Shown here: positions 11,313 to 27,931 of the stretch, in pieces
Layout: every line of letters begins with the position of its first letter
Position numbering within the stretch: position 1 is the stretch's first letter
IMG/VR virus record: IMGVR_UViG_3300010430_000277
Span: 1-34,609 of that record
Strand: one strand, 5' to 3'
DNA from: a virus
DNA: 34,609 nt
Program-made: the position numbers and the translations under genes
Notes under the pieces: generated by a model
The model's database searches: none
Told to the model about the DNA's origin: nothing
Seen by the model: the letters and a program-made list of their open reading frames with translations, nothing else

Positions 11313-11846
11313 TTATTTTCTCCGAGCAAAGGGGGAAGATTTACCGCCCCGTTGTGGCTTGTTGGCCTTGCGTTGCTGTTCTTCGAGTTGCTCCTTTTCA
11401 ATGGCTCCGATTTCGTATCGAATAACCTCGATTGCGCGGACGAATTTTTCGCTTTGCTCCCAAAGTTCTCCGAAAGGAAGTATGCCGTGAGCATCGAGCC
11501 AACCATACGCGCGGAAATATTCGCCAATGTGAGAGCGGTTAACAATGGCTTGGGGGCAAGTTTGAAACTCGTATCCGGACGGGTTCCGGACGGGGTTAAT
11601 TGCGGGCTCGCCTCGGCATCCGTAGAGGTCTTGGAGGTTTTCGACGTTTTGTTTTCGGGCTTCGGGGTCATCGATTATATACCCCCGTTGCGAGGGATCT
11701 TTGCACCACTCGCACGACTTCGGCCCGTTGGGCTTCTTCGAGTTCCGAACCGCCCACTTGAGGGCTTCCGCTTCCTCTTCGGTGAGCGTATTTTGATAAA
11801 CGATTTCGGCCGCGAGCTCCGCCAAGAGTCCGCGCCCGCTCGTTAT
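11313..11846 (-). CDS. tail assembly chaperone, frameshifted C-terminal part (gpT-like)
   Basis: This frame has no good start of its own (its first usable codon is a TTG at 11825 without a clear Shine-Dalgarno site). It is reached by a -1 slip at the A-AAA-AAA heptamer at 11852-11846: after the slip the ribosome reads ATA ACG AGC and continues for 177 codons, giving a 307-residue fusion with the upstream 130-residue protein. The extension is rich in Glu and Lys, with a CEWC motif and a CRGEP segment in its first half. By analogy with lambda gpG/gpGT, the fusion should bind the tape measure protein during tail assembly. It ends three bases before the tape measure start. Confidence 0.8.
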   Translation of the reverse strand: MTSGRGLLAELAAEIVYQNTLTEEEAEALKWAVRNSKKPNGPKSCEWCKDPSQRGYIIDDPEARKQNVENLQDLYGCRGEPAINPVRNPSGYEFQTCPQAIVNRSHIGEYFRAYGWLDAHGILPFGELWEQSEKFVRAIEVIRYEIGAIEKEQLEEQQRKANKPQRGGKSSPFARRK

Positions 11847-12235
11847 TTTTTTGAGTCGTCGTCCTCATTGTCGGCCCCATGACTTGAGATTTTTTGAAAA
11901 AGGCCGGTCAAAAGTCCACTAGCGTAATAGATATCGAGAGTCTCGTCGGCTACGACTTCCATATTTTTACCGTTAAGGCGGCTCTTACTCACCTTAAACG
12001 GAACCTCGGAACCATCTTCGAACTCTAAGCCGGAGTGACCCTTCACCCCGTACTTAACGACGTCTAATTGAATGTTTAGCATATCTTCACCCGATGCCTT
12101 GCCCGCCACTTGCCGTTGACCGGCGTCTATGAATTGTGCATAGATGGTGCGGGGAATAATCCCGATTTGGAAAACGCCGCCTTGATACTTAAACTCGACG
12201 GTGTGATCGGGTCGGACACAAACTAGTTTACTCAT
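11843..12235 (-). CDS. tail assembly chaperone (gpG-like)
   Basis: A 130-residue protein between the tail tube and the tape measure. A strong AAGGAGG lies eight bases before its ATG. The N-terminal half is beta-rich and the C-terminus is acidic, ending DNEDDDSKK at the slippery site. This is the position and length of the short tail chaperone made without frameshifting; a small share of ribosomes should produce the longer fusion. No sequence family is recognised directly; the call rests on position and the frameshift signal. Confidence 0.8.
   Translation of the reverse strand: MSKLVCVRPDHTVEFKYQGGVFQIGIIPRTIYAQFIDAGQRQVAGKASGEDMLNIQLDVVKYGVKGHSGLEFEDGSEVPFKVSKSRLNGKNMEVVADETLDIYYASGLLTGLFQKISSHGADNEDDDSKK
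11846..11852 (-). promoter_or_regulatory. programmed -1 ribosomal frameshift site A-AAA-AAA
   Basis: The last three sense codons of the short chaperone are TCA AAA AAA followed by TAA, so the heptamer sits exactly in the zero-frame X-XXY-YYZ register. The -1 frame is open from here to 11313. CGAGC just downstream can pair with a GCTCG about 20 bases on, a possible stimulatory stem. This is the classical arrangement for tail chaperone pairs. Confidence 0.85.
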
Positions 12236-12331
12236 GGCCTAAGCCTCCTTGCGTAAGAGGTCCGGGGTCGGGCATGATGGCCCACGCAAGAAAAGCCGCC
12301 CTTCCCCAAACCAATTTCTATAACCTTGCGT

Positions 12332-13507
12332 TTAGACGAAGCCCAAAAAGATTTCGTCTTGAAGTGCAACGGATTCGTGAGCGGAAAAGGGTAGCGAGTG
12401 AACCATAGTCCCGTCGCTATCTTCGAAGCCCACACCGGTAAAGTTATTAAACGGCATCCAAAGGCCGACACCTTCTCCGGCGATAAAATCGTCGGAAGCA
12501 TCAAGGCTCGCAATACCCACTTCCAATTCGAAGTCGGTATTATCGACAAAGTCGGTCCAAATTGAAATGTTAGCCGCGTCGACTTGTGGGTCCACGGTGC
12601 CGGTAACTTCACGATCGGTAATGAAGAGACGAGAACGTCCGCCGGTGTTTGTAATACATTCTTCCGGGGTGACGGTTTGCGCCATAGTCATTTCGATATT
12701 GTTTACACAAAAAAGCGTATCACTTCCGCCGCCAGTCGCACTCCGATACACATTACCACCGATCGCAACCGGGGGAGGTGTGGCGTTAAAGGTCGGAGTA
12801 AACGGGCTTGAAGCCGCGACCGAATCGTAATCCAACATCTCGAGAGTAAGGGTGAGTTTTGGAATTTGACCGGTTGCGAAGTCGGTAAAGGCCACGTTAG
12901 AAACGCGACAACCAACGCCGCGGGCTTCCCATTCGTCGCCATACCAAACCGTGATAGAGAGCGGATCATGAGAATCATTGGCGGGTTTGTATGTGTATCC
13001 GCCGATAACGTCCACCGCGGCGGCGGGGGCGCCCTTGTCTAGAGCCCGGTTAAGGGTCAAGACGTCGCCGGCCACGCTACGCACAAAGCGAAGCTCGCCG
13101 TCAATGTGAACCACGTCGCCCTTTTCGTAGGCCGCGCCTTCGCCGGTATCGACATTAATGTCGGTATCGGTTGAGCCGCCAACGGTTGTTGCATTGCCGG
13201 GGGTAGTCTTGCGCCCGAAAGCGGACTCGAGCAAGACGTCGGCTTCGGGGGCGTCAACCACGATGCCGGTTACGCCTCCGGATCGAAGCTCGATTCCGAG
13301 CTCCATTGTGCCGGACCGAATCCCATGTAGGGGTTTCAATCGGCCGATGCTACCTTTAATGAGGTTACGGTCGAGTTGCTCCACTTCCGGATTGAAAGCG
13401 GGAACGTCGACAATTTGCACATAGTCGGCCCCGGATGCGGGAGCAACGTAGGTGCCTTCGGTAACTTCGGCAACCACGGCAACGAGTGTACTTCTTGTAA
13501 GTGCCAT
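12332..13507 (-). CDS. major tail (tube) protein
   Basis: A 391-residue protein located between the neck proteins and the tail chaperones. The first residues (MALTRSTLVAVVAEVTEGTY) match the typical start of phage tail tube proteins of the gpV/phiCbK-like type, 'VAEVTEGTYVAPA'. A beta-rich tube domain fills most of the length, with an inserted 'GDVVHIDGELRFVRSV' hairpin near residue 130 and an Ig-like or C-terminal domain after about 280. It is expected to be one of the most abundant virion proteins. A 96-base gap separates it from the next gene. Confidence 0.8.
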   Translation of the reverse strand: MALTRSTLVAVVAEVTEGTYVAPASGADYVQIVDVPAFNPEVEQLDRNLIKGSIGRLKPLHGIRSGTMELGIELRSGGVTGIVVDAPEADVLLESAFGRKTTPGNATTVGGSTDTDINVDTGEGAAYEKGDVVHIDGELRFVRSVAGDVLTLNRALDKGAPAAAVDVIGGYTYKPANDSHDPLSITVWYGDEWEARGVGCRVSNVAFTDFATGQIPKLTLTLEMLDYDSVAASSPFTPTFNATPPPVAIGGNVYRSATGGGSDTLFCVNNIEMTMAQTVTPEECITNTGGRSRLFITDREVTGTVDPQVDAANISIWTDFVDNTDFELEVGIASLDASDDFIAGEGVGLWMPFNNFTGVGFEDSDGTMVHSLPFSAHESVALQDEIFLGFV

Positions 13508-13519
13508 TAGTTTACCTTT

Positions 13520-13963
13520 CTAAACTAAGTTGATATCGTATTTCATACGAAAGATAAGAGTGGAGACCAACCACTCACCGTTTTCGGTTTCAACGAGTTC
13601 AACCGTTGAAGATTCGATGGTCTCAAAAACGATACCGGAGTCTATCCTTTGCTTAACCAAAGATTTAACTACGGTTTCCTCATTATCGAGAACGTCTCTA
13701 TATTTGTCTTGATTTGCAAGGCCGGCATAGGAAGTCGGCATCTTGTAAAGGACGACAATTTCGAGATTTCGCTCGATGGTAAGCATCTTATTAATTGCTT
13801 TGCGGTCAAAGTCGGGACCGGCCGAGAGAAAGCGAGCCGAGTACGACTTATCTCTAATGGTCGCCGGTATGCGGGCGGTATCAAATATCACGTTTGACTC
13901 CTCGAAGCCGAGGTTCTTCATTCGTATATTTAACGCGTCCAATACATCTACCGGCGTTGACAT
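13520..13963 (-). CDS. tail terminator/tail completion-like protein
   Basis: A 147-residue protein starting with a TAATG overlap with the upstream neck gene and followed 12 bases later by the tail tube gene. The fold suggested is alpha/beta: an N-terminal helix (VDVLDALNIRMKNLG), then strands such as NLEIVVLYKM and WLVSTLIFRMKY separated by an Ala/Asp-rich helix. Size, order and architecture fit the tail terminator proteins that cap the tube (lambda gpU-like), although sequence similarity cannot be shown by eye. Confidence 0.6.
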   Translation of the reverse strand: MSTPVDVLDALNIRMKNLGFEESNVIFDTARIPATIRDKSYSARFLSAGPDFDRKAINKMLTIERNLEIVVLYKMPTSYAGLANQDKYRDVLDNEETVVKSLVKQRIDSGIVFETIESSTVELVETENGEWLVSTLIFRMKYDINLV

Positions 13964-14400
13964 TAGATGCGACCCAAGCGGGGGCCGTGATCGGTTTGGA
14001 TTTCGTCTTTGGTGATTTTGCCGTCGTTGTTTTTATCAACGCTCAAGCTACGCTTAACGTTTTCTAACTCATTGTTAAACATCGAAAAATATTTCTCTTC
14101 CTTGGCCGCGAAGCGATCTCCGCCGTTAACCATGAGAAAGCCGAAAATAATCTCGAGAGTTTTAAATGTGCTAAGTAAACGTAGCTCGCTTGTCCGGACG
14201 AGTTGGGACTCCGCGTCACCCTCGGAGAACTCCGCATCAAGAACCTTGTCCTTAATTAGGAGATCGAGGATCTCGCGCTTTGCCGCGTTGTGTTGCGGTA
14301 AAAAGTCGCCTTGCCCCTCCGGTATATAGCAATTAATCCCGGGCTCGCGCTCGAGAAGGTCTTGGTCGTCGGACCAAACATCGCCGTAAATTTCACCCAT
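13963..14400 (-). CDS. head-tail connector-like protein with an EF-hand loop
   Basis: A 145-residue protein between the major capsid protein and the tail terminator, where head-completion or adaptor proteins lie. Its middle is helical (residues 40-115), like gp6/gp15-type adaptors. Unusually, residues 122-133 form a canonical EF-hand calcium loop, with Asp at positions 1 and 5, Asn at 3, Gly at 6, Ile at 8 and Glu at 12. The C-terminal part after the loop is short (12 residues), so only one EF loop is present. I infer a metal-stabilised neck protein. Confidence 0.65.
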   Translation of the reverse strand: MGEIYGDVWSDDQDLLEREPGINCYIPEGQGDFLPQHNAAKREILDLLIKDKVLDAEFSEGDAESQLVRTSELRLLSTFKTLEIIFGFLMVNGGDRFAAKEEKYFSMFNNELENVKRSLSVDKNNDGKITKDEIQTDHGPRLGRI

Positions 14401-14419
14401 TCCAAGCCCCGTTCAAATT

Positions 14420-14443
14420 GGGGGAAGGCCTAAGCCCTCCCCC
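14420..14443 (-). terminator. hairpin after the major capsid gene (attenuator or mRNA stabiliser)
   Basis: Arms at 14420-14429 and 14434-14443 pair over ten positions in the leftward RNA, with one G-U pair and a four-base loop. On the rightward strand the same position is an A-C mismatch, so the hairpin is better in the late mRNA. No U-run follows, so it is more likely a processing or stability element, or a leaky terminator, than a full stop. Confidence 0.5.
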
Positions 14444-14466
14444 GTTTTTGATTACGAAACGTCTAA

Positions 14467-15300
14467 TTAGACGTTACGCTCCACAACTTGGACGGCGTCT
14501 TCTTGGACGAGAACGCCACCATAGAGCACGAAGCCCTTGAGCAAGTCGGCAAAGCCTTTTTCACGACGGGCGCTTTCAATGGTGAGCTCTTTTTGCTGAG
14601 CCCAAGCCAATGCGCTTTCGTGGAAGAAGGGGTTTTGGTAGGTGTCGGGAGTGGCACCGGATTGTGAGACCGAGGTCGACACAACGATACGGAAGCCCAT
14701 CAACATACCAATTTCGCCTTCCATCAAAGCAACGCGGGACCCGTACTGATCGGCGTTAATGATGTTGGCATTACCCAAGAGGTCGCCTTCGACTTCGGGA
14801 TGGATCACGGCCCAACGGCCATCTTGTGGCACGTCTTGACTATTCAAGGCCACGCGAGCGTCCCGGAAGTCGTTAAGGTCGACGGTAGCGCCGGCCGAAA
14901 TGGGGGTGTTAGAAGTAGCGGCACCCAAGAGACTCAGCAAGTGCTGGTTCTGAGTAAGGGCGATCTTCTCGGCGGCGTCCCGGATAATGGGGCTATCGAG
15001 AGAGATGTTCGCTTGGATGGCGTCGACGTCGGCTACTTCCATAGCGAAGTAACGCTCTTGGTCGATGGGAAGATCGACTTGGGTCGAGGCAATGGTGTCG
15101 ATGGTGATATCACCGGTTCCGGCCGCGGCCAAATCGCGCACGGTGATTCCGGAAAACTTGTTAATGTGCACCACGTCGCCGCGACGGTTAATGTCGCCTT
15201 CATATTCACGAGTGGCAAGAAAGCGCAAGTCGCGTTTCTCTTGGAGAATGGCGACGAGAAGGTCGGACCAAAGCTCCGGTTTAAAGTTGTCTACTGACAT
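14467..15300 (-). CDS. major capsid protein
   Basis: A 277-residue HK97-fold type capsid protein. It follows the scaffold gene and has GGAG about seven bases before its ATG. Typical segments are the N-terminal helix with EKRDLRFLATREYEGD, the beta motif 'GDVVHINKFSGITVRDL', 'DQERYFAMEVADVDAIQA', and the C-terminal 'HESALAWAQQKELTIESARRE' preceding the final strand. There is no obvious maturation protease gene nearby and the N-terminus is short, in keeping with a separate scaffold protein and no delta domain. Its DNA has somewhat more CAG/CTG triplets than the replication genes, perhaps reflecting selection for host-optimal codons. Confidence 0.9.
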   Translation of the reverse strand: MSVDNFKPELWSDLLVAILQEKRDLRFLATREYEGDINRRGDVVHINKFSGITVRDLAAAGTGDITIDTIASTQVDLPIDQERYFAMEVADVDAIQANISLDSPIIRDAAEKIALTQNQHLLSLLGAATSNTPISAGATVDLNDFRDARVALNSQDVPQDGRWAVIHPEVEGDLLGNANIINADQYGSRVALMEGEIGMLMGFRIVVSTSVSQSGATPDTYQNPFFHESALAWAQQKELTIESARREKGFADLLKGFVLYGGVLVQEDAVQVVERNV

Positions 15301-15324
15301 TGTTTACTCCAATGTTAAACGGGT

Positions 15325-15960
15325 TTAAAGTCTATTTTTCTTCCGCGCTTGCTCGCGTTTGCGAAAAAGGGCGATTCTTTGGTCCCGCGGTAACTTAGAG
15401 ATTTCATCCATAGAAAGGTCTCCGCCTTTCTCATTGAATTTTGGCCCCTCATTGCCACGAGTGGTTGAGGGCGTCTTTTCCGTAGATTTAAATAGGTATG
15501 AATGGTTTTTACGAAGAGATTCGAGGGCTTCGGTAACGCCGTGGACGTCGCCCGTTTCCTCATCGAAAGCAATAATGCCACGATCGAGGAGCTTAAGGCA
15601 ATCGGAATCCTTGATACCCATCCGAATGGCTTCCGACTCAATCTTTGAGTGGAGCTTATCTTCACGAATCCGGGAACGGAGGCTATCAACTTCTTTTTCA
15701 CGTAGTTCGGCAAGCTCTTTGTACTTGTTTTGCTCTTTGAGCTTCTCTTCGGCAAATTTCTTTTGTTCCTCTTCAAAAGCACGGAGTTTTTCCTTACGCG
15801 AGATTGACTCGCGCGTAACGTCCGAAAGCTTTTTTTGAGCTTCTTCATACTTGGTTTTTAATTCCTCTACTGAAAATTCGCCTTCTTGATCGTTTGTCTC
15901 GACCGGCTCTTGAGAACTATTTTCGGCGTTCTCGGCTCCGTTGGCGTCTGCCTCCGACAT
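15325..15960 (-). CDS. capsid scaffolding protein
   Basis: A 211-residue protein directly upstream of the capsid gene. The first 30 residues are acidic and polar. About residues 30-110 form a long charged coiled coil (EELKTKYEEAQKKL, then RAFEEEQKKFAEEKL), followed by a region with 'SEAIRMGIKDSDCLKLLDR' and an acidic low-complexity segment. The C-terminus is basic (FRKREQARKKNRL), as expected for the coat-binding tail of scaffolds. The overall plan matches DUF4355-type phage scaffolds. It has an AAGGGAG ribosome site beside a GC hairpin. Confidence 0.85.
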   Translation of the reverse strand: MSEADANGAENAENSSQEPVETNDQEGEFSVEELKTKYEEAQKKLSDVTRESISRKEKLRAFEEEQKKFAEEKLKEQNKYKELAELREKEVDSLRSRIREDKLHSKIESEAIRMGIKDSDCLKLLDRGIIAFDEETGDVHGVTEALESLRKNHSYLFKSTEKTPSTTRGNEGPKFNEKGGDLSMDEISKLPRDQRIALFRKREQARKKNRL

Positions 15961-16036
15961 TGTCGGCTCCCTTGGGGCACGGCCCCGGCTTTGCGTTATC
16001 TTAAATGGTTGAGGTTTTTAAGATCCGAGTCAAGTT

Positions 16037-16537
16037 TTATCTAATCTCAATTCGGCGACTACCGCGAGCAATGAGTCCGCGCAACTCTACCCCGAATCGG
16101 TTACTCAACTTTTTAACTTGGCGTGGGGACAACCCAACCCAAGTACCCTTGAGGCGGGAGGTATTGTCGGCCTTCTCTTGTTGCCTCTTTTGGGTAAAGC
16201 CGATAATCGCTTCACGCCTAGAGGCACGCTTAACCTTAAGATTATTCATCATCCGGCCGGCAAAGGTGAGGTTAACAATGTCGGTCCGACGGCTATTCGC
16301 ATTTCGGAAGGCCTTATAGCCGCCCTCGAATCTTTTAGACTTTCGGTCCTTTAGTCGAAAATAGCCCGGATTGGTGCTGTACCCCGGAAATTTGTTGTCG
16401 TTAACGTCTTTGCCGCTTTGTTGGGTGCGGTCGATAACCTCGACTAAGGCGTCGTTAGCTAGGGTCTTGATTAGTTCCCCGCTCTTAAAGCGTTTATCGA
16501 TGAGCGATAGGGTCGCATTAAATAACTTCCTCGCCAT
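16037..16537 (-). CDS. Mu G-like virion morphogenesis protein
   Basis: A 166-residue basic protein. Its motif 'GKDVNDNKFPGYSTNPGYF' near residues 42-60 resembles the 'G..W.PLS..T' region of phage virion morphogenesis (Mu gpG-like) proteins, followed by 'VNLTFAGRMMNNLKVK' and a basic C-terminus. It follows directly after a Mu F-like gene, the same F-G order as in phage Mu. These proteins act in head completion or tail joining. The ATG at 16537 comes one base after the preceding stop. A 76-base spacer with a GC-rich hairpin separates it from the scaffold. Confidence 0.6.
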   Translation of the reverse strand: MARKLFNATLSLIDKRFKSGELIKTLANDALVEVIDRTQQSGKDVNDNKFPGYSTNPGYFRLKDRKSKRFEGGYKAFRNANSRRTDIVNLTFAGRMMNNLKVKRASRREAIIGFTQKRQQEKADNTSRLKGTWVGLSPRQVKKLSNRFGVELRGLIARGSRRIEIR

Positions 16538-16538
16538 C

Positions 16539-17399
16539 TTAAGACCTTACCCCCGTATTCCCGGCCTCTTGCTCTTCGGCGAAGGCTTCGGGAGAGACCG
16601 GTAAAAGGCGGTGACGACAACCCCAACCGCCCGGATTGGACATAGAAGCCGCCCCGATCGGGTTTCCGGCCACATCGTCCCGGATTTCGGAGTCGGTAAA
16701 GTATCGACCGGCCCGACGGGCGCAAAAATCTCGGTTTGCACCGTCTAGGGGACCGGAGTAATACCAACCCCCAATCGCGTCTCGGTCGGTGGCTTGTTGA
16801 ATGACTTCGCCCTCGAAGGTGTTATAGGCGGTCATGGCCCAAGTTCGGGCGTGCCTCGCCATTGGATTACCGGCCCGATCCACGGTCCCGGCGACCGTTG
16901 ATCTTAAGCGCCGAATTAGGGTCTCCTCATCGACTCGGGTCGTGAGGCTTTGAAAGATGGTGTCCGAGATAACTTGGGAGGTAGCGGCCGCACCCCCATT
17001 AAACCGGTTAAGATTGAAATTTAAGAAAGCCGAAACGACCTCCCTATCTACGGAGGCGAGCCTTTGGTCCGCATTAAACCCGGCCGCGGTTAAGCTCCGG
17101 TTAAGATCGGCGGTTATGCCCCGGATCTCTATAAGTAGGCTTTCCTTTGCATCGTCCGCAATGGCGTTAAGCGCCCCGTCTAGGCTTTGGATGATAGTTA
17201 GGGCTTGATTAAAGTTCTCACGATTGAGCTCGAGAAAGTCGTCATCACTTAAGACAAAGCGGCGGGAGGCGACGATAAGCTCGTCCGACAAGGCTTGAAG
17301 CCCGGACGCGACGCTTTTCTCGGCTCGGTCCATGCCCCGATCTTCGAGCTCCCTAAGATCGATCGCAATCCGTTCTATTTCCGCCGGGTCAAAAGGCAT
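16539..17399 (-). CDS. Mu F-like minor head protein
   Basis: A 286-residue protein after the portal, joined by TAATG. The C-terminal third carries the hallmarks of the phage head morphogenesis (Mu gpF, SPP1 gp7) domain: 'RTWAMTAYNTFEGEV', then 'WYYSGPLDGANRDFCARRAG' and finally 'GGWGCRHRLLPV', in which Cys and His residues are conserved. The N-terminal 150 residues are helical. Members of this family sit at the portal vertex and may enter the cell with DNA. The identification by motif and order is firm. Confidence 0.9.
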   Translation of the reverse strand: MPFDPAEIERIAIDLRELEDRGMDRAEKSVASGLQALSDELIVASRRFVLSDDDFLELNRENFNQALTIIQSLDGALNAIADDAKESLLIEIRGITADLNRSLTAAGFNADQRLASVDREVVSAFLNFNLNRFNGGAAATSQVISDTIFQSLTTRVDEETLIRRLRSTVAGTVDRAGNPMARHARTWAMTAYNTFEGEVIQQATDRDAIGGWYYSGPLDGANRDFCARRAGRYFTDSEIRDDVAGNPIGAASMSNPGGWGCRHRLLPVSPEAFAEEQEAGNTGVRS

Positions 17400-19009
17400 T
17401 ATCTATCGCGGCCTCGACCACGGTTGTCGGAGTTGCCTAGAGATTGACGAACGAGAGCCGCAACCCGGTTACCGGTGTCTTCCGGTTGGGGTTCTTGAGG
17501 TTCGGTCCGAGCCGGATCTCGAGTCGGGTCGAAACTATCGAATAAGCCCGAAGCCCCGCGAAGACGCTCCATCTCGGCCGCTACTTCCTCGAGATATTTC
17601 TCCGCGTCCTTTTCGTTAAAGGATGGCTTCATAGCCATAATTATTTCGGTTGGCTTAATGAGGCCTTGGGCCTTGAGCGCCAACATATTGGTAACTTTGT
17701 CCGACATGGACTCGAAGGCATCGTCGGGACGGTTGTAAACGATCTTAACTTCGAGATCATCGGGAAGCTTGTCGGCGTCGATTTCTCCGGCGTCTACGCG
17801 GAGATTCCACATTGGAACCATAACCTCGAGGAGCCCGGACTCGACCTCGCGATAGAATTCTTCGAGAGATTCGCGGATCTCGATAAGGGGCGCATTACGG
17901 ATCTTAATTGCGACCCCGGACTCGACGGCGCTCTTAGTTGTGCTGAATGTGTTTTCCGGCAAACCCCGAGAACGCGCAAAGCCGGCCAAGATGCGGTTAA
18001 CGGTCTCGAATAAACCATCGAAATCGGCATCGGGCTTAAGAAATTTAAGCTCGGCGGCATGGTCGGGGTCTTTGGCCTCGAAGGTGACAAGGGACTCCGG
18101 ACCCCATTCAACCGAGGTTGAGAAGTCCACGTTTTGCCCCACAAGTTGCCCATGCACTTGGAACTCGGAAAGATGCAAGGCATCGGACAATAATAGGTTT
18201 ACGTTTAGGTTTGTGTTGGATAGGTTGAGATCGGCGTCGCAATAAATACCGTCGTCGGGCACGACTTGACGAACAAGGACAAACGGTATAAGGCCGTCCG
18301 GGTTAACGTTGTCGGGATTCTCTTCGTTGGGCATAACGTTAAGTTGATCGTCGAGCTTCCAAAAGTTTTCCTTAGTCCAAACAAAATATTTTTGCTCTTT
18401 AATGTGGTCTTCATCGAGATATGAGGAAAGCACAACCGCGGCTAAACGGCCGTCCTCATCCAACATCACATCAAACAAGAATTGGGGCACGACGCTAGTT
18501 TGTAGCTTATCGTCCATCCACCGGACCCAAATAAGATCGGTGCGATCGAAGTTTACATAACGCTCTAGCTTTTGGAATTGCATATCGAGCTTGGCGTCGT
18601 TAACCATGCGATCGTAAGTCGATTGGATTTCGGCCCGTTCGGCGTCTAGGGCCTCGATCTCGGCGTCGGAAGCTTCGGAATCAATATCGGCACCGACTAC
18701 GCGGTCGGGGGGTTGTTTGTAGACGACCGAGATTGAATCGACAATCATTCGAGACACGTTTTCGACGTGCTTCCGGCGAGAGGTTACCGTTTTTGGGAAA
18801 CGTTCCCGCATCTCCTCGGTTAAAAGCTCGAGTTGGCGCGTGCCCCAATAATAATCGTAAACCTCTTTAGATATCTTTTTTCGGCTTTGTTGGCCTTCGT
18901 CGCCCTCATTTTTATTGAACTCGATAAAGGCGCGGACGTCGCTAAGTTGGATATTCTCTACGTCTTCGGGCTCCGGTGCCGGACGTCGGTCGTCGGTTGT
19001 TTGTGGCAT
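17399..19009 (-). CDS. portal protein (SPP1 gp6-like)
   Basis: A 536-residue protein between the Maf-like gene and the Mu F-like gene. The region from about residue 60 to 420 shows the portal pattern: 'HVENVSRMIVDSISVVYKQPPD', 'LPENTFSTTKSAVESGVAIKI' and 'LPDDLEVKIVYNRPDDAFES', followed by a helical C-terminal part with 'EIIMAMKPSFNEKDAEKYLEE'. The last 45 residues are polar and disordered. It forms the dodecameric DNA gate at one capsid vertex. TAATG overlaps link it to both neighbours. Confidence 0.9.
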   Translation of the reverse strand: MPQTTDDRRPAPEPEDVENIQLSDVRAFIEFNKNEGDEGQQSRKKISKEVYDYYWGTRQLELLTEEMRERFPKTVTSRRKHVENVSRMIVDSISVVYKQPPDRVVGADIDSEASDAEIEALDAERAEIQSTYDRMVNDAKLDMQFQKLERYVNFDRTDLIWVRWMDDKLQTSVVPQFLFDVMLDEDGRLAAVVLSSYLDEDHIKEQKYFVWTKENFWKLDDQLNVMPNEENPDNVNPDGLIPFVLVRQVVPDDGIYCDADLNLSNTNLNVNLLLSDALHLSEFQVHGQLVGQNVDFSTSVEWGPESLVTFEAKDPDHAAELKFLKPDADFDGLFETVNRILAGFARSRGLPENTFSTTKSAVESGVAIKIRNAPLIEIRESLEEFYREVESGLLEVMVPMWNLRVDAGEIDADKLPDDLEVKIVYNRPDDAFESMSDKVTNMLALKAQGLIKPTEIIMAMKPSFNEKDAEKYLEEVAAEMERLRGASGLFDSFDPTRDPARTEPQEPQPEDTGNRVAALVRQSLGNSDNRGRGRDR

Positions 19010-19890
19010 TAGTCTTTACTCCCGCCGAAATCGGCAAATTTGTCTTCGAGGCTCATTACTTCGCAAGTGGTGTTACCTTCGGTCATGGCGCCGCCCTCGG
19101 TGCAATTTACAACCTTCATACCGAAATCGCCGTCGTAGTTATGGAGGAACCACATAAAGTGCTCGTTGTAGATGTTGGTTAGGTTGATTTGGGAGGAATC
19201 CCAATCCATGCGAAAGCCGGAGCAATGGTGTTGATCCGGGTAGCACATCATGTCGTAACCCAAAAGAACGGCCTCTTTGGCGCCTAGCTCACGGCAAAGG
19301 TCGATTGCGTGGAAGCCGACCATACTTACCTTTGGGCGAAGAAAGGGAAACTCGATACCCGCCGGGAAGGCGTGCGGGTGGAGATCGTGCATAAATCGAT
19401 AGCGGCGGTCGTAATTAATGTAATAAAAGACGGGGCCGGTATAGTCCGCTTGCCAAAGATCAATAAATTTGTAGTTGCACCACGTATCCGCGATTAACGG
19501 AATCTCTCGATAGAAAGAGAGAACGTCGTCCTCGAGGAGATCCTCGGTCGTGGGAACGTCGCTCCGGGTGTGCTTCCCGTCCGCCTCGCTTGAGATAACA
19601 TAGTCCGGCCTCATGCCATGTAGCATTAAGGCTTTCACCGCTCCGTCGGTGGCAACAACCACCCCCGCCCCTCGGTGATACTCACGCGAAAACAACTCGA
19701 TATTATTGTCTAGGCTAGGGCCGGCCCCGATAAGGAATACGGTTTGGCCCTCAAATTTAGGTCTAAGCTCTTCGATGGTGTGCACCCCAATAGAGGGGAC
19801 ATTGGCCTCGGAGTATTGGAAGTTTTTCTTCATATTGATAAAAAAGACGTGCGACTCGAGTTGGTCGTAGGTCATGGGTTTTTGGCTCAT
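19009..19890 (-). CDS. Maf/MptE-like DUF115 family protein
   Basis: A 293-residue protein lying between large terminase and portal. It carries the N-terminal signature of the MAF_flag10/DUF115 family: 'VFLIGAGPSLDNNIELF' (residues 51-67), a lone Asp at 82 in 'VVATDGAVKALMLHGM', and 'PDYVISSEAD' (95-104). A second conserved patch is 'KVSMVGFHAIDLCRELGAKE'. Relatives include archaeal MptE pterin pyrophosphokinase and Maf proteins that glycosylate flagellin with nonulosonic acids; the shared fold is glycosyltransferase-like. The substrate here is unknown. Its place inside the packaging block suggests virion or host-surface modification, but that is inference. Confidence 0.8.
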   Translation of the reverse strand: MSQKPMTYDQLESHVFFINMKKNFQYSEANVPSIGVHTIEELRPKFEGQTVFLIGAGPSLDNNIELFSREYHRGAGVVVATDGAVKALMLHGMRPDYVISSEADGKHTRSDVPTTEDLLEDDVLSFYREIPLIADTWCNYKFIDLWQADYTGPVFYYINYDRRYRFMHDLHPHAFPAGIEFPFLRPKVSMVGFHAIDLCRELGAKEAVLLGYDMMCYPDQHHCSGFRMDWDSSQINLTNIYNEHFMWFLHNYDGDFGMKVVNCTEGGAMTEGNTTCEVMSLEDKFADFGGSKD

Positions 19891-19894
19891 TCGG

Positions 19895-21385
19895 TCACCA
19901 TGTAAAGGATGCCTTGTTGCGTGTGCCCTTGGACTCGGCGAGCTTCATATAGAGAAGGAGGTCTCCGAGCGCGTCCATTGTGTGATCGTTGTCCTTGATC
20001 GGATCGCCTCCCTTAGCGTCGCCACTCTTTGCGTGCTCCACCTCGGAACGCATATACGATTCGAACTCAAAAATCGTATTCTTGCACTCCGCGGAGATAA
20101 TTAAGCCCGGTTTACCGTCTTCTTTATCACGAAGTAGGGACCCAACGCAATCTATTTTTGCCTCGACGGAGTCTTTACCCTTCTTACAAGGCAAGGTCCG
20201 GATACCGAGCTTCGCTAGTTGGTTTCGCTCTCGGGGTCCTTCGGAGTCCGATATTTGACGGTCAAACCGTCCGGTGAGATTGAAAAAAGCCCCCTCTCCT
20301 CGGACCGTCCGAGATTTGATTTTTCGGGCGTCGAATTGTCGGATTTGGGCGGCGAGGTCTTCGAGGAGCGTTTCCGTTTTGTAGATTTCGTGGAATACGT
20401 ACCACCGGTCCACGTTGTTTTCATTAAAACGAGCCACCCAAAGACAAGCGAAAGGATGAGACCAACCCCAATCAATACCACGATAGTACCGCCAATGAGG
20501 CTGTAAAACGTAGTCGCTAGGATCGACAACATGAATCTTACGATCAAATTCCGCGTAAACCCGGCCACCTTCGCTAGTGTATTCGCAACAATGCTCGCGA
20601 TTGAAGGCCGCTTCGGACATTCCTCGTCGGGTCTTTGCTTCCCAATTGTCATCGTTCTTTTTCTCCGGGTTCTCGTGCCAAAAGATCTTATCAAAGTCGA
20701 TACCCCATCCCACTTGATTAACGTCTAGGGCGTAAAAGTAGCCTACTCGGCCCTTTGGCGGGCTCGAGAACATATTTAGGTATACGCAACGGCCTTTATT
20801 GGCGTTGTATAGATCTTCGAAATTACGGTTAAATGAGGCTTCATCGAATACGCACCGAAACCAAGTCTCGCCCCGTCCCGCGGTCGGGCTCGAGGTCATA
20901 AAGTAGATGCGGGAGAAGTGGGAGTCGCCGTGCTTAAGCTCGATTTCGGTCTTCGAGTCGGACGTGATCTCAAAAGGAAACATTTCCTTATTAAGATGGT
21001 CGAAAATGAATTGGCAACGCTTCTTAACCTTCTTGGCTTCGGTCTCACCAATTGAGAAATAACCGTCCGCAATGTTGGGGCGAAAGATCACATCATGGAC
21101 ACAAACCGCGGCCGCAAGCCAAGTTACGAGGTTTTGGACGGCCTTAAGACTAGCCACCGGCACCCCGGCTTGATTCCACCGGTCGTGCGTGCGCTTAAGA
21201 TAGGCCCAATCGGGAAAAACCCGGGCTTGGCCCTTATCGTCCGCGGTTACGCAATAATGAGTAATGAAGTACCACGAATCACTCTTGCACTTCCTCCACT
21301 CCTCCTCCATCAAGTGGGAGTTTAGGATCTCCAATTCGTGCAAGGATAGATTCGATAATCGCTTCTTTAGTTCGGTCTCTCGCAT
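19895..21385 (-). CDS. terL: terminase large subunit
   Basis: A 496-residue packaging ATPase-nuclease. Walker B is clear (CVFDEA, residues 178-183). The Walker A region at 80-90 is deviant (KAVQNLVTW): a Lys at its start, as in lambda gpA, but Val where most relatives have Arg. The nuclease domain shows 'YRGIDWGWSHP' (Asp305) and the C-terminal 'DNDHTMDALGDLLLY'. The first ATG overlaps the small terminase by 107 bases, unusual here; a later Met at 21310 may be the true start because recognisable homology begins just after it. It moves DNA into the capsid through the portal. Confidence 0.93.
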   Translation of the reverse strand: MRETELKKRLSNLSLHELEILNSHLMEEEWRKCKSDSWYFITHYCVTADDKGQARVFPDWAYLKRTHDRWNQAGVPVASLKAVQNLVTWLAAAVCVHDVIFRPNIADGYFSIGETEAKKVKKRCQFIFDHLNKEMFPFEITSDSKTEIELKHGDSHFSRIYFMTSSPTAGRGETWFRCVFDEASFNRNFEDLYNANKGRCVYLNMFSSPPKGRVGYFYALDVNQVGWGIDFDKIFWHENPEKKNDDNWEAKTRRGMSEAAFNREHCCEYTSEGGRVYAEFDRKIHVVDPSDYVLQPHWRYYRGIDWGWSHPFACLWVARFNENNVDRWYVFHEIYKTETLLEDLAAQIRQFDARKIKSRTVRGEGAFFNLTGRFDRQISDSEGPRERNQLAKLGIRTLPCKKGKDSVEAKIDCVGSLLRDKEDGKPGLIISAECKNTIFEFESYMRSEVEHAKSGDAKGGDPIKDNDHTMDALGDLLLYMKLAESKGTRNKASFTW

Positions 21386-21911
21386 CTATTTCTATCTTTT
21401 CGGGGTCTTTAACGACCATCCCAATCGATTGTAAAAGCTTCACTTTCTCGACCTCAATTTGGCGGGCGGCGTTGTGATCTTCAGCCTTAATCGCCATTTG
21501 ATACAAGTGGTCAAATTTGCGAATTACCTCTTCGGCCGTCTCTCTCGGCGTTTGCATAAGATTGCCGGCGCTATACTCTTCGGAAAAACGAGCTAGGTCC
21601 CGGTTTAAGGTCTTGTACGTGATGTTTAAGAGCTCGCAAATCTCAATCTTAGAGATTCCCCTTACGATAAATTGTTGGATTACCTCTCGGCGGTCGTCCA
21701 TGCACATATCGGGCGGGGGCGAGCCCTCGGCCTTGGCCCAAATAACGAGCTCAATAAGTGGCTCAATTGGTTGTGGCGGCGGTTGATCGGCCTTAGATCG
21801 ACGCTTTTTCGAGACTTGGGGAACGTAAGTCGCCTCTTTAGAAGGGGGCTTATCACTCTTTGCGGCTCTCTTGCGTGGCCGACCGGGTTTATTACGGTTT
21901 TTGTCCGGCAT
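21279..21911 (-). CDS. terS: terminase small subunit
   Basis: A 210-residue DNA-binding protein before the large terminase. The N-terminus is basic with an AT-hook-like 'GRPRKR', followed by a Pro-rich linker. A helix-turn-helix is seen at about residues 83-110 (QFIVRGISKIEICELLNITY). The C-terminal half is helical and ends acidic, as expected for oligomerisation and large-subunit contacts. No Shine-Dalgarno sequence precedes the ATG, but a promoter (TTGCGC-16-GATAAT) places +1 exactly on its A, so the late transcript may be leaderless. It should select the packaging site. Confidence 0.85.
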   Translation of the reverse strand: MPDKNRNKPGRPRKRAAKSDKPPSKEATYVPQVSKKRRSKADQPPPQPIEPLIELVIWAKAEGSPPPDMCMDDRREVIQQFIVRGISKIEICELLNITYKTLNRDLARFSEEYSAGNLMQTPRETAEEVIRKFDHLYQMAIKAEDHNAARQIEVEKVKLLQSIGMVVKDPEKIEIDARDRTKEAIIESILARIGDPKLPLDGGGVEEVQE

Positions 21912-21917
21912 ATTTCA

Positions 21918-21945
21918 ATTATCTTAAACGCCAAACCCGGCGCAA
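21918..21945 (-). promoter_or_regulatory. candidate late promoter (TTGCGC-16-GATAAT)
   Basis: The -35 lies at 21945-21940 and the -10 at 21923-21918 on the leftward strand, spaced by 16. The predicted +1 is 21911, the first base of the small-terminase ATG. A GCC-N6-GGC dyad overlaps it, but in a different register from the early operators, so I do not count it with them. A TTACGCGTAA palindrome lies just upstream at 21951-21960. Confidence 0.5.
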
Positions 21946-21976
21946 GGATCTTACGCGTAATAAACTAAGGAAGCTT

Positions 21977-22144
21977 TTAAGTCGAATCGAGGCCTTCGAT
22001 AATTTCCCTCATCCGATTAAATGTCCCGAGGCATGGGTGACACCACCACTCGAGGTCGTCGTCGGGCTCAACCCCAACGCGAATAAAGTTCATCTTGCTG
22101 TAAGCCTTGTTGCAATTTTGGCAAATTCGTAAGTCGTCGCTCAA
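21977..22144 (-). CDS. small zinc-ribbon protein
   Basis: A 55-residue protein starting with TTG at 22144 that overlaps the preceding stop (TTGA). It has two Cys pairs, CQNC (residues 8-11) and CHPC (35-38), the spacing of a treble-clef or zinc-ribbon fold, with two Trp before the second pair and a helical C-terminus. It is the last gene of the leftward early operon. The function is unknown; such small zinc proteins are often phage regulators or host-takeover factors. Confidence 0.6.
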   Translation of the reverse strand: MSDDLRICQNCNKAYSKMNFIRVGVEPDDDLEWWCHPCLGTFNRMREIIEGLDST

Positions 22145-22275
22145 TCTTCGTCGTCCCGGTGATATAAAACTTCGCGTATGGTAATGCCTTCATCGAGCAT
22201 AACTTCGGAAACTTGGTCGACTAAGTGGCGGTGAATACGTCCGGGAGGGGTGAGGCAAAAGGCAACGCGCATCAT
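22141..22275 (-). CDS. 44-residue protein, unknown function
   Basis: It starts at an ATG with AAGGTG six bases upstream and ends in a four-base overlap with the TTG of the zinc-ribbon gene. The sequence begins MMRVAFCLTPPGRIH and ends with an acidic DDED after a helix (VDQVSEVMLDEG). No family is recognised. The Shine-Dalgarno site and the tight downstream junction are the only support for translation. Confidence 0.5.
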   Translation of the reverse strand: MMRVAFCLTPPGRIHRHLVDQVSEVMLDEGITIREVLYHRDDED

Positions 22276-22285
22276 TTGGCGCACC

Positions 22286-22768
22286 TTATTTATCTTCTTG
22301 GCTCTCTCCGGATCTTTCAACGTGCCTAGCCTTAATCATCTCACCGAGGGCAAGATATCCAATTGCGTCGATTCGGTTATCGCGTTTAGGCTTATTCTTC
22401 TCCCTTATAAGCTTCAACGCAACCATACACAAGCAAAAATCGTGCGCGGTTACGGGCGCACCAATAATCGCGCTCCACATTTGGGCCACCTTTTCGAATT
22501 CGGCCTCGGCGTCTCCGTATTCGGCGTTGCGATCACCAAGGATTAAGCCCTCAACATCACTAAACGCGGATTTAACGCTTACCCGGTCATCGATACCGGA
22601 AATTACATCTTTTCCGATTTCGCAATCCTTGTTAAGGATAAACTCCATAGCGCCGTCGCCGTGCTTATCTAAAAGCTCTCGAGCCATCCGAAAATGAGCG
22701 GGCTCTATTGTTCCGTCGGCTTGCTTGCCGGCCAAGAAATCTATTATTTCATCTTCCCCTATATTCAT
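22286..22768 (-). CDS. DUF6378-like phage protein
   Basis: A 160-residue protein. The ATG at 22768 overlaps the previous stop as ATGA; a GTG 15 bases upstream was not preferred. The C-terminal half shows the DUF6378-type pattern: 'DRNAEYGDAEAEFEKVAQMW' followed by 'FCLCMVALKLIREKNKPKRD' and 'IDAIGYLALGEM', an all-helical domain found in many phages and usually of unknown role; its acidic helix pattern loosely recalls MazG-type folds, but I cannot show the nucleotide-binding residues. The N-terminal half is acidic. Confidence 0.65.
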   Translation of the reverse strand: MNIGEDEIIDFLAGKQADGTIEPAHFRMARELLDKHGDGAMEFILNKDCEIGKDVISGIDDRVSVKSAFSDVEGLILGDRNAEYGDAEAEFEKVAQMWSAIIGAPVTAHDFCLCMVALKLIREKNKPKRDNRIDAIGYLALGEMIKARHVERSGESQEDK

Positions 22769-24753: not shown

Positions 24754-25071
24754 TCAAATTTCTCCGGTTTGAGATCTAAGGCTTTCGGCTTCCGCGGTCC
24801 GGATTTCTTCGCCGACTTCGTTATAGATTTCCGCGATAACAAGGCGTCCTCGATCGACTTCCTCCGAATTCCATCCCGACTGACGCGTAACCTTAGTAAG
24901 GAGTCCAATATGTTTAAAGGCGGTTTTCGCAATGTCTTGCGCGGTTTCAAGGTTTGACGCACCGCCGATTTCCCGGAGGGCGTGTATCGCGATTTCATAT
25001 TTTGCCTTTCTTCGTTTGTAATACGATTGGTTTATTATGGTCCGTTTTTCGGGCTTGCTTGGGGTAGGCAT
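24754..25071 (-). CDS. 105-residue protein, unknown function
   Basis: The first gene after the internal terminator. It has its own promoter (TTCACA-17-TACAAT) and a GGAGG site eight bases before the ATG. The N-terminus is basic (RTIINQSYYKRRKAKYE); helices follow (IAIHALREIGGASNLETAQD, then FKHIGLLTKVTRQSGW). The order of helices loosely suggests a winged-helix or other DNA-binding fold, but I would not assign it. Strong expression signals suggest a role early in infection. Confidence 0.65.
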   Translation of the reverse strand: MPTPSKPEKRTIINQSYYKRRKAKYEIAIHALREIGGASNLETAQDIAKTAFKHIGLLTKVTRQSGWNSEEVDRGRLVIAEIYNEVGEEIRTAEAESLRSQTGEI

Positions 25072-25096: not shown

Positions 25097-25125
25097 ATTG
25101 TAGCTCAAGGTTGATACATTGTGAA
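25097..25125 (-). promoter_or_regulatory. promoter TTCACA-17-TACAAT with dyad operator
   Basis: It lies just downstream of an intrinsic terminator and drives the genes from 25071 leftward. A TGTAGCT-N6-TGATACA dyad at 25099-25118 is centred 18.5 bases upstream of the predicted +1 (25090), the same geometry as six other promoters in this window. The 19-base leader carries CCGGAGG. Confidence 0.65.
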
Positions 25126-25126
25126 G

Positions 25127-25173
25127 AAAAAAAAGCCGACCGGGCGTCTTTGTAAGGAGAATACCCGGCCGAC
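25127..25173 (-). terminator. intrinsic terminator with a leader-complementary loop
   Basis: In the leftward RNA a ten-base-pair stem (25173-25164 with 25144-25135, two G-U pairs) is followed by eight U residues. It ends the 26848-25222 operon. Its 19-base loop contains AUUCUCCUUAC (25162-25152), an exact complement of the first 11 bases of that operon's mRNA, GUAAGGAGAAU, and of 9-10 bases of four other early leaders. The terminator call is firm; the pairing function is inference. Confidence 0.8.
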
Positions 25174-25221
25174 CAAGAGAGAGCCCGACAATTAAGCCGG
25201 ACAAGAGAAGAAGAACCCGCA

Positions 25222-25467
25222 TTATAGCTCATGTTGAGAGCCGCGGTCCGAAAATTCTCCGCAATAATCGGCCGATTTAGTCCGGGGGTGGTGCGCGGCC
25301 GAGTCGAAACGACCACCGGACATACAAGGCGGAAACCGGACGCACTTACCCTCGGTGGGGTGTGGTTGAGGCTCGAGCCCCATTGGACGAATATACGTAC
25401 TCCGCTCCCAAAAGTGACAATGGTCGCAACGTAAGCCGGATTCCGGCCCCTTCACGAGTTCGGACAT
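25222..25467 (-). CDS. Cys-rich small protein (paralogue B)
   Basis: An 81-residue protein whose ATG at 25467 overlaps the stop of the upstream gene (TAATG). It has the pattern CDHCHFW, then 'GKCVRFPP', and near the C-terminus 'TKSADYCGEFSDR'. The neighbouring upstream gene has the same order of motifs, so the pair arose by duplication. This 'C..C.fW...C.RfPP...DwCGEF' pattern occurs in short phage proteins of unknown function and probably binds one metal ion. It is the last gene before the terminator. Confidence 0.65.
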   Translation of the reverse strand: MSELVKGPESGLRCDHCHFWERSTYIRPMGLEPQPHPTEGKCVRFPPCMSGGRFDSAAHHPRTKSADYCGEFSDRGSQHEL

Positions 25468-25718
25468 TAGGCACCCTCCCGCGGTATAAATTCTCCGCAC
25501 CAATCGTAATTAACGGTTTTTGGGTATTGAGTCGAGAAAATGGTCTTTGTGGACGGAGTTACGGCCAAACCCCTAAATTCGTAAGCGGTCGGAACCAAGG
25601 TCGGCGGAAACCGGCAACAATCGCCCTCCGTATTTTCTCCGGTGGTTCCATCCCAATACACGCACCTCGAGCACGACTTAACGGGATAGACGGTTGGGTC
25701 TATCTTCGGCTCGCTCAT
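25467..25718 (-). CDS. Cys-rich small protein (paralogue A)
   Basis: An 83-residue protein with CSRCVYW near residue 16, 'GDCCRFPPT' near 33 and 'VNYDWCGEFIPR' at the end. The downstream gene has the same layout. The ATG at 25718 overlaps the previous stop as ATGA, with a GGGGAAAA stretch before it. Four Cys are conserved between the copies, suggesting a small metal-binding fold. Function unknown; retention of both copies implies different partners or dosage need. Confidence 0.65.
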   Translation of the reverse strand: MSEPKIDPTVYPVKSCSRCVYWDGTTGENTEGDCCRFPPTLVPTAYEFRGLAVTPSTKTIFSTQYPKTVNYDWCGEFIPREGA

Positions 25719-25870
25719 TTTTTCCCCATTTCCTTAAATAGACAAACATAACAAAGCACGTCTTGAGGTCGGATTTTACCCGCCGCCCAATTACGGCGAC
25801 CCTCCGGACTAAAGTCGGTAAGCTTAAGCTTGACGCCGCACCGATCACATTTGGGGGTAGGGTGGGTCAT
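25715..25870 (-). CDS. small zinc-ribbon protein
   Basis: A 51-residue protein from an ATG at 25870 (ATGA with the preceding stop) ending in ATGA with the next gene. It has CDRC at residues 8-11 and CYVC at 40-43, the two knuckles of a zinc ribbon, with 'FSPEGRRNWAAGKI' between them. A Lys-rich helix ends the protein. Function unknown; it is one of at least five Cys-pair proteins in this operon. Confidence 0.6.
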   Translation of the reverse strand: MTHPTPKCDRCGVKLKLTDFSPEGRRNWAAGKIRPQDVLCYVCLFKEMGKK

Positions 25871-26025
25871 GAGTTGGCTTCCTCATGCGAAATATCATCG
25901 ACTAATTTTTGGATCGCTTTATATTCGTTGCCATAACCCAAGAAGGCACGAAGGACGCGGCTAATGCGGTGCTCAAGATAGACCACCTTTTCGGCGTCGC
26001 TCATCTTTGCGTATTTCTTTAGCAT
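25867..26025 (-). CDS. 52-residue helical protein
   Basis: I chose the ATG at 26025, which overlaps the previous stop by seven bases, over an in-frame ATG at 26067 that would overlap by 49. The sequence starts MLKKYAKMSDAEKVVYLEHR and continues as helices with 'AFLGYGNEYKAIQKLVDDI'. It is wholly alpha-helical, with no Cys. No family is recognised. The start remains uncertain. Confidence 0.5.
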   Translation of the reverse strand: MLKKYAKMSDAEKVVYLEHRISRVLRAFLGYGNEYKAIQKLVDDISHEEANS

Positions 26026-26288
26026 GATCTCAACCCCAAATCGGCGCGCGGCAATTTGTGCCCGCATTTCGTTTCGGTAAGTTTCCAAAGCCCCATCTCG
26101 CGCAAAATTTCCACGCAACGAAATCGAAATTTTTCTTCGGTCAAATTCGAGAATCTCTCCCGTACGTGAGTATCGTACGTCGTGTCTTCGGGATGAACCA
26201 AGAGCCAATATTGGTATTTTTCGAATTTATACAAAATAAACTCGAGCCCATGCTCTCGGGCGATCTTTTTCGCGGTTGCGTAGTGCAT
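26019..26288 (-). CDS. 89-residue protein, unknown function
   Basis: The ATG at 26288 is preferred over a TTG at 26339 that overlaps the previous gene. The N-terminus has an Arg/His helix (YATAKKIAREHGLEFILYKF) followed by strands (YQYWLLVHPED), then a helix with 'FRFRCVEILREMG' and a Lys/Cys-rich tail. A perfect 6-bp hairpin (CCGGGC loop GCCCGG, loop CTAA) lies just before the ATG, where a ribosome site would be, so translation may be coupled or repressed. Function unknown. Confidence 0.5.
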   Translation of the reverse strand: MHYATAKKIAREHGLEFILYKFEKYQYWLLVHPEDTTYDTHVRERFSNLTEEKFRFRCVEILREMGLWKLTETKCGHKLPRADLGLRSC

Positions 26289-26302
26289 CGAAGAGCCCGG
26301 GC

Positions 26303-26848
26303 CTAAGCCCGGACCTCCATAAGCGGTTTTGGTTCCCAAGATTTGTAACGAGCTTCTTGTTTCTCAATGTCGCCGAGAAGGTGCTCCAAATTCCTTTCGG
26401 CTTTAAGGATTGCGTTATCGCGGAAGCGATCTATCGCGGAGTCGAGATCGTACAAGCCGCAAGAAATCGCCGAGCGGGTCCTCTCGACTCTTTCGGCCCC
26501 ATTTCTGCCCGCCTTAATTTCGCTAAATATAATTTGCAACTCTCCGTCGCCGTCAACCTCGAGGCGGACCGGATCACCTCCGCTAATGAGCCCCTCTTGG
26601 CTCTTGCTTTTTTTGAGCTCGTATTGGCGGTCGACATTTCCCTTAAAGGTTGCGATCATACCCTTGAGGCGCTCAACAAAACGGCCCAAGACCTCGCGAG
26701 ATTCTTCGAAGGGTTGCTCTTCGGAGCCGGGACAAGTTCCGCTAAACTCTCCCCATTGGACCCGGTAACCGTGCTTTGATAGTTTGCCTTTGGGTAGCTT
26801 TTGAAGCCGTCCGCAAATTTGGCAAGTGCCCTTGTGGGTTGCTTTCAT
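26303..26848 (-). CDS. zinc-finger phage protein, first gene of the leftward early operon
   Basis: A 181-residue protein. Its N-terminus 'CQICGRLQKLPKGKLSKHGY' followed by 'VQWGEFSGTCPGS' matches a widespread family of phage proteins with a Cys2-His-Cys-like zinc site and no assigned role. About residues 45-170 are charged helices with a short strand-rich part (VRLEVDGDGELQIIFSEI), probably coiled. It is the first gene after promoter TTGCCA-17-CACAAT; the mRNA should start with the 14-base leader GTAAGGAGAATCCA directly before the ATG. High early expression is likely. Confidence 0.7.
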   Translation of the reverse strand: MKATHKGTCQICGRLQKLPKGKLSKHGYRVQWGEFSGTCPGSEEQPFEESREVLGRFVERLKGMIATFKGNVDRQYELKKSKSQEGLISGGDPVRLEVDGDGELQIIFSEIKAGRNGAERVERTRSAISCGLYDLDSAIDRFRDNAILKAERNLEHLLGDIEKQEARYKSWEPKPLMEVRA

Positions 26849-26868
26849 TGGATTCTCCTTACGCCCCT

Positions 26869-26897
26869 ATTGTGGCCCAAGCTCGCCACGTTGGCAA
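26869..26897 (-). promoter_or_regulatory. leftward early promoter TTGCCA-17-CACAAT with operator
   Basis: The -10 hexamer is at 26874-26869 and the -35 at 26897-26892. The dyad at 26871-26890 (TGTGGCC-N6-CGCCACG) is centred 18.5 bases before +1 (26862). The transcript begins with GTAAGGAGAATCCA directly before the ATG at 26848. It is divergent from the promoter at 26943. Confidence 0.75.
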
Positions 26898-26942: not shown

Positions 26943-26970
26943 TTGCATTGTAGCCGGTTTGGGCTACACT
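26943..26970 (+). promoter_or_regulatory. rightward early promoter TTGCAT-16-TACACT with operator
   Basis: The dyad TGTAGCC-N6-GGCTACA (26949-26968) is a perfect 7-base inverted repeat filling the spacer and overlapping the -10 element. The predicted +1 is 26977, giving a 14-base leader GTAAGGAGAGCGAA to the ATG at 26991. This is the best operator copy in the window. Confidence 0.8.
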
Positions 26971-26990
26971 AAGAGAGTAAGGAGAGCGAA

Positions 26991-27155
26991 ATGAGATACG
27001 CAATAACATTAAAAAACACCGAAACGGGCAAAAGCAAAATTTGGCAATATAGCTCGGACTTGGAAAACGCCAACGCCATTCAAAACGACTATTACAAAAA
27101 CCAGCAAATTGATGGCGTTAAGTGCGAAATCGTCAAAGTGGAGGACCGGTCCTAA
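26991..27155 (+). CDS. 54-residue early protein, unknown function
   Basis: The first rightward early gene, expressed from the promoter at 26943 with a 14-base GTAAGGAG leader. The protein (MRYAITLKNTETGKSKIWQY at its start) is rich in Asn, Lys and Tyr and has a beta-beta-alpha feel, with a single Cys. Its stop overlaps the ATG of the metallopeptidase gene (TAATG), so the two are translated together. No family is recognised. Confidence 0.65.
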   Translation: MRYAITLKNTETGKSKIWQYSSDLENANAIQNDYYKNQQIDGVKCEIVKVEDRS

Positions 27156-27584: not shown

Positions 27585-27612
27585 TTGTATCGTGGCCCAA
27601 TTAGGCTACACT
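27585..27612 (+). promoter_or_regulatory. rightward promoter TTGTAT-16-TACACT with operator
   Basis: The dyad CGTGGCC-N6-GGCTACA (27591-27610) has its centre 18.5 bases before the predicted +1 at 27619. The transcript would start with the 14-base leader GTAAGGAGAACGAG before the ATG at 27633. It follows directly after the terminator at 27538-27563. Confidence 0.8.
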
Positions 27613-27903: not shown

Positions 27904-27931
27904 TTGTATCGTGGCCGCGTTGTGCTACTAT
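27904..27931 (+). promoter_or_regulatory. rightward promoter TTGTAT-16-TACTAT with operator
   Basis: The dyad CGTGGCC-N6-TGCTACT (27910-27929) is centred 18.5 bases before the predicted +1 at 27938; the leader GTAAGGAGAAGGCA is 14 bases long. The right half-site is one or two bases weaker than in the two preceding promoters. Confidence 0.75.

Follow-up and report, generated by a model that had tools for sequence, protein, structure and literature searches.

A terminator loop antisense to the leader of its own operon in a tailed-phage sequence: a possible feedback RNA

The leftward operon described here ends at an intrinsic terminator. Over 11 nt, the loop of this terminator is perfectly complementary to the sequence with which the operon's own mRNA is predicted to begin, Shine-Dalgarno (SD) sequence included. 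The loop amounts to one antisense copy of a block, GTAAGGAGA, that opens this leader and four others nearby, an unusual arrangement. One reading is that the loop provides anti-SD feedback from the 3′ untranslated region (3′ UTR), a possibility to which we would give slightly less than even weight; this and simple coincidence are judged about equally likely.

The leftward operon and five similar leaders

The window, meaning the whole 34,609-base stretch analyzed, is IMG/VR virus record IMGVR_UViG_3300010430_000277. It carries tailed-phage genes (terminase, portal, tape measure) and further encodes a DnaB-like helicase, a Sak4-like annealing protein, and an exonuclease. The ORFs of the leftward operon have family matches that are either weak or to families of unknown function. 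The operon and the leaders considered here are:

25222 to 26848, minus strand: leftward operon of six overlapping small ORFs, the first of 181 aa (26848-26303), the last of 93 aa (stop at 25222)
26869 to 26897, minus strand: predicted operon promoter (TTGCCA, 17 nt, CACAAT)
26848 to 26862, minus strand: operon leader, GTAAGGAGAATCCA then ATG, with the predicted +1 at 26862
26977 to 26993, plus strand: leader of gene 26991, GTAAGGAGAGCGAA-ATG, 9-nt match to the terminator loop
27619 to 27635, plus strand: leader of gene 27633, GTAAGGAGAACGAG-ATG, 10-nt match to the loop
27938 to 27954, plus strand: leader of gene 27952, GTAAGGAGAAGGCA-ATG, 10-nt match to the loop
28450 to 28466, plus strand: leader of gene 28464, GTAAGGAGAGAGAG-ATG, 9-nt match to the loop

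All five leaders open with GTAAGGAGA, which includes the SD sequence TAAGGAG and places it at the predicted +1. In all five promoters the block begins 7 nt past the -10 hexamer, making the +1 assignment a reasonable one, and these presumptively early mRNAs probably begin with their own SD sequences. Four of the five promoters also have in common a palindrome, approximately TGTRGCC-N6-GGCTACA, covering the spacer and the -10 (copies at 26949-26968, 27591-27610, and 27910-27929 on the plus strand and 26890-26871 on the minus strand), which looks like a candidate operator, to which a shared repressor or activator might bind.

The terminator loop and the 3′ UTR

The 3′ end of the operon and the start of the next leftward transcription unit have the following elements:

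25127 to 25173, minus strand: intrinsic terminator at the end of the leftward operon (stem 25173-25135, U8 tract 25134-25127)
25145 to 25163, minus strand: terminator loop of 19 nt, TATTCTCCTTACAAAGACG
25152 to 25162, minus strand: anti-leader 11-mer within the loop, ATTCTCCTTAC, the exact complement of GTAAGGAGAAT (26862-26852)
25174 to 25184, minus strand: single-stranded linker adjoining the terminator on its 5′ side, GCTCTCTCTTG, a weaker second anti-SD-like element
25183 to 25202, minus strand: small hairpin in the 3′ UTR, upstream of the terminator
25097 to 25125, minus strand: promoter-like site for gene 25071, the next in the leftward direction, directly past the terminator (TTCACA, 17 nt, TACAAT)

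On the minus strand the terminator reads GGTCGGCCGGG-TATTCTCCTTACAAAGACG-CCCGGTCGGC-TTTTTTTT. Its stem has 10 bp according to a strict terminator caller, and 12 pairs in an RNA fold that includes wobble pairs; the minimum free energy of the hairpin is -22.8 kcal/mol, and the region 25120-25190 has a fold z-score of -2.67 relative to shuffles. A bidirectional terminator was rejected, the plus strand being without a T tract, and a boxA-like reading of the loop, made by eye, was dropped because the loop sits inside the terminator hairpin. Covariance-model searches of the 3′ UTR against Rfam gave no match at the gathering threshold, nor did a local search relaxed to E=5.

The sequence-only reading that drew attention to this locus had described an 11-base complement between loop and operon leader, and this was confirmed with its coordinates. 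Its statement that the match ends at the +1 base, 26862, also holds, the +1 being a predicted one, as do the 10, 10, 9, and 9 nt that it gave for the leaders of genes 27633, 27952, 26991, and 28464. These four additional matches are not independent of the first, since GTAAGGAGA is common to all five leaders.

Two other accounts of the loop are less likely than feedback or coincidence. The first, which we consider improbable, is that it is an inverted relic of a leader, or an example of a recurring DNA motif such as a protein-binding site, without any RNA pairing. The plus strand across the loop does resemble a ribosome site (CTTTGTAAGGAGAATAC), and there is a further GTAAGGAG on this same strand at 24896, 256 nt away. 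However, the likeness to the leaders stops at the 11-mer, and the candidate palindromic operators are upstream of the +1, outside GTAAGGAGA. The plus strand at the loop was also said to have neither a -10 nor a start codon where a copied gene start would need them; this is correct, and counts against a relic. The sequence at 24896-24912 on the plus strand (GTAAGGAGTCCAATATG) is itself leader-like, with an ATG and a 15-codon ORF but no -10, and is located within a minus-strand gene.

The second, which seems very improbable, is that the CU-rich 3′ UTR is a by-product of coding, with the anti-SD string representing Ile-Leu-Leu-Thr codons of a short hydrophobic ORF. Such an ORF can be found, with 44 aa (25222-25088, minus strand; MRVLLLLSGLIVGLSLG...) and a start that overlaps the operon's final stop codon (TAATG), but it would cross both the terminator and the next promoter, and has neither a clear SD sequence nor a family match.

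A perfect TATAAT (25226-25221, minus strand) lies before the terminator, overlapping the stop codon of the operon's final ORF, and a short transcript of its own, some 80-90 nt long, could start from it. A separate small RNA promoter at 25226 was considered, and was not relied on because this hexamer has no recognizable -35.

Strength, selectivity, and chance

The predicted duplex between the loop and the operon leader (26848-26862) has an energy of about -16 kcal/mol; the corresponding values for genes 26991, 27633, 27952, and 28464 are -14.8, -15.1, -16.2, and -15.5 kcal/mol, from calculations with no term for the strain that loop closure would put on the duplex. When the SD-bearing starts of all ORFs of at least 40 aa detected in the window were ranked as loop partners, the top five places went to the five early leaders and no others (-14.8 to -16.2 kcal/mol), with -12.2 kcal/mol for the sixth. 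Gene 25071, directly past the terminator, has an SD sequence (CCGGAGGTG) that differs from those of the early leaders and is not matched by the loop, and its duplex energy is only -6.7 kcal/mol. Both partners are predicted to be accessible, with opening costs of about 2.3 kcal/mol for the loop (11-mer unpaired) and 0-1.3 kcal/mol for the leaders. The usual anti-SD is predicted to bind the leaders more weakly than the loop does, at about -9 to -10 kcal/mol. Joint folding of terminator and leader favors the linker over the loop, which can be read only as a hint, the method having no way to represent pairing between a loop and a linear sequence.

The window has 6 copies of GTAAGGAGA, one at each of the five leaders and one, in antisense, in the loop, vs. 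a mean of 0.195 in dinucleotide shuffles; GTAAGGAGAAT is found twice, vs. 0.01. A search of both strands in 19-nt segments, leaders excepted, gave a complement of at least 10 nt to any of the five at the loop alone; beyond it there are three scattered 9-nt complements elsewhere in the window. An 11-nt match is meaningless on its own, because there are about 735 pairs of repeated 11-mers in the window, and only its location counts: what is odd about this one is that it falls within the terminator of the very operon whose leader it complements.

Coincidence, to which we likewise give not quite an even chance, would mean that the hairpin separating the operon from the next leftward promoter is a terminator like any other, whose loop happens to hold the complement of a consensus-like SD sequence. 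One chance match would then look like five, because the five leaders share the SD consensus. The abundance of repeated 11-mer pairs is in keeping with this, as are the strong constraint on SD blocks and the occurrence of TAAGGAG at non-leader sites at about the shuffled rate. The loop 17-mer also occurs in four other viral contigs; in two of these, from unrelated phages, it precedes a gene as its SD sequence, and in the other two it is plain coding sequence, so that a terminator role in these was ruled out. Furthermore, the look-elsewhere space is large, and the locus has no relatives found that could show conservation.

Against coincidence are the estimated probabilities for a 19-nt loop and this family of leaders, about 5e-4 for a match of at least 9 nt and 1e-5 to 1e-4 for 11 nt, together with two sets of controls. 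The first consisted of 120 viral stretches (1.02 Mb), chosen solely for having GTAAGGAGAAT followed by ATG at equal spacing; none of the 120 has a second copy of the leader 11-mer on either strand. The second consisted of 70 strict terminators from these stretches and other fetched viral loci (1.17 Mb). None of the 70 loops matches a leader over at least 9 nt, the longest matches being 8 nt to a leader in the loop's own stretch and 7 nt to the leaders of this window. Among 20,000 shuffles of the loop, 0.02% reached its duplex energy with its own leader, and none its mean energy over the five. As a rough estimate, the chance of the arrangement is about 1e-4 per such window; allowing for the look-elsewhere effect it is perhaps about 1e-2, a figure that is a matter of judgement.

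Relatives were sought with five proteins of the window and three DNA patterns in IMG/VR, with two proteins in genome contigs, and by megablast against phage records. The last found no close relative of the window, and no sequence found in any of the three collections spans the terminator-leader locus. One 10.8-kb IMG/VR contig is 99.8% identical to window positions 11786-22622, but ends at about 22622, before the locus. Other hits, including those to proteins encoded on either side of the locus, were remote or unrelated. Two unrelated viral fragments, L012 and L013, strikingly resemble the window in promoter and leader (GGCTACATTACAAGAGTAAGGAGA), with these modules (TTGACAGCCTGTGATCGTCAGGCTACATTACAAGAGTAAGGAGA):

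L013, 9480 to 9545 and 9845 to 9900: promoter-leader modules
L012, 16 to 60 and 371 to 420: promoter-leader modules

No protein shared with the window was detected in either; the fragments and the window perhaps have a host, or a regulatory module, in common. Neither has an antisense copy of GTAAGGAGA, both sequences being fragments.

A possible feedback RNA and its known counterparts

If the match is functional, the 3′ end of the leftward operon would be a regulatory RNA element with an anti-SD loop. After termination, the loop would pair with the GTAAGGAGA that heads the operon's own mRNA and four other putatively early mRNAs. The acting form might be the full transcript, or else a shorter one of about 50-95 nt released by processing, with the CU-rich linker perhaps contributing. 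Ribosome-binding sites would be covered by the duplex, which might in addition become accessible to RNase III, so that translation of the early genes would fall as their transcripts accumulate, and genes with other SD sequences would escape. A broader form of this proposal, in which the loop silences a whole early regulon through a 9-nt SD block shared by every early promoter at its +1, in proportion to early transcription and sparing later genes with other SD sequences, appears rather unlikely.

The sequence-only reading had suggested such a feedback RNA, acting on the operon and four other early genes. It stands as plausible because the pairing is exact, predicted to be accessible, strong, specific to the five leaders, and rare in matched controls; what does not stand is the weight of five separate matches, which are a single SD block. 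Also to be counted against feedback are its post hoc choice among very many possible coincidences, the similar promoter-leader fragments (L012 and L013) that have no antisense GTAAGGAGA, the lack of a relative at the locus, the lack of an Rfam match, and, as a hint, the preference of joint folding for the linker.

Were the feedback proposal true, it would provide a very compact, protein-free switch from early to late expression, in which a shared leader defines the regulon and a terminator loop closes it, and would add phage early operons to the bacterial genes in which 3′-UTR autoregulation is known. Its simple signature, a repeated leader block matched in antisense by a terminator loop of the same genome, could also be searched for.

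The individual components have precedents. Anti-SD feedback from a 3′ UTR has already been described for icaR and for OppZ and CarZ, and pairing of a terminator loop with SD sequences for LhrC. In Staphylococcus aureus, a UCCCCUG motif in the icaR 3′ UTR pairs with the SD sequence of the same mRNA, blocking translation and creating an RNase III substrate (PMC3868564). The phage element would likewise set a 3′-UTR anti-SD against the SD of its own mRNA, with 11 nt of exact complementarity to the translation start, as expected of an autoregulatory 3′ UTR. The icaR motif, though, lies in the long 3′ UTR of a bacterial mRNA, whereas the phage motif is a predicted one, is in a terminator loop, and has four further possible targets.

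The Vibrio cholerae small RNAs OppZ and CarZ derive from 3′ UTRs and repress their own operons (PMC7398697), and so resemble the phage element in that the 3′ end of an operon mRNA acts back on the translation of that operon. They are Vibrio-encoded, processed by RNase E, and proven by experiment; in the phage sequence the terminator and its U8 tail can be seen, and a processed form is hypothetical. If real, it would differ from all of these systems, and from LhrC, in being phage-borne and in targeting a set of leaders with an SD block at +1. A limited literature search, of open-licence papers only, found no phage with such an arrangement.

In Listeria monocytogenes, three CU-rich parts of LhrC, two loops (one of them that of the terminator) and one single-stranded stretch, bind the SD region of a target (PMC4132741). 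The phage element is similar in having a terminator loop and a CU-rich linker, but LhrC is an independent, multicopy, trans-acting small RNA with a UCCC motif, and the phage element forms an operon's 3′ end and has UCUCCUUAC. As for the multiple CU-rich anti-SD sites typical of LhrC, the loop is a strong candidate and the linker a moderate one: 71 of 3000 shuffles equalled the mean duplex energy of GCTCTCTCTTG with the five leaders. For the 5′ segment of the 3′ UTR the figure is 394 of 3000, no better than shuffled sequence.
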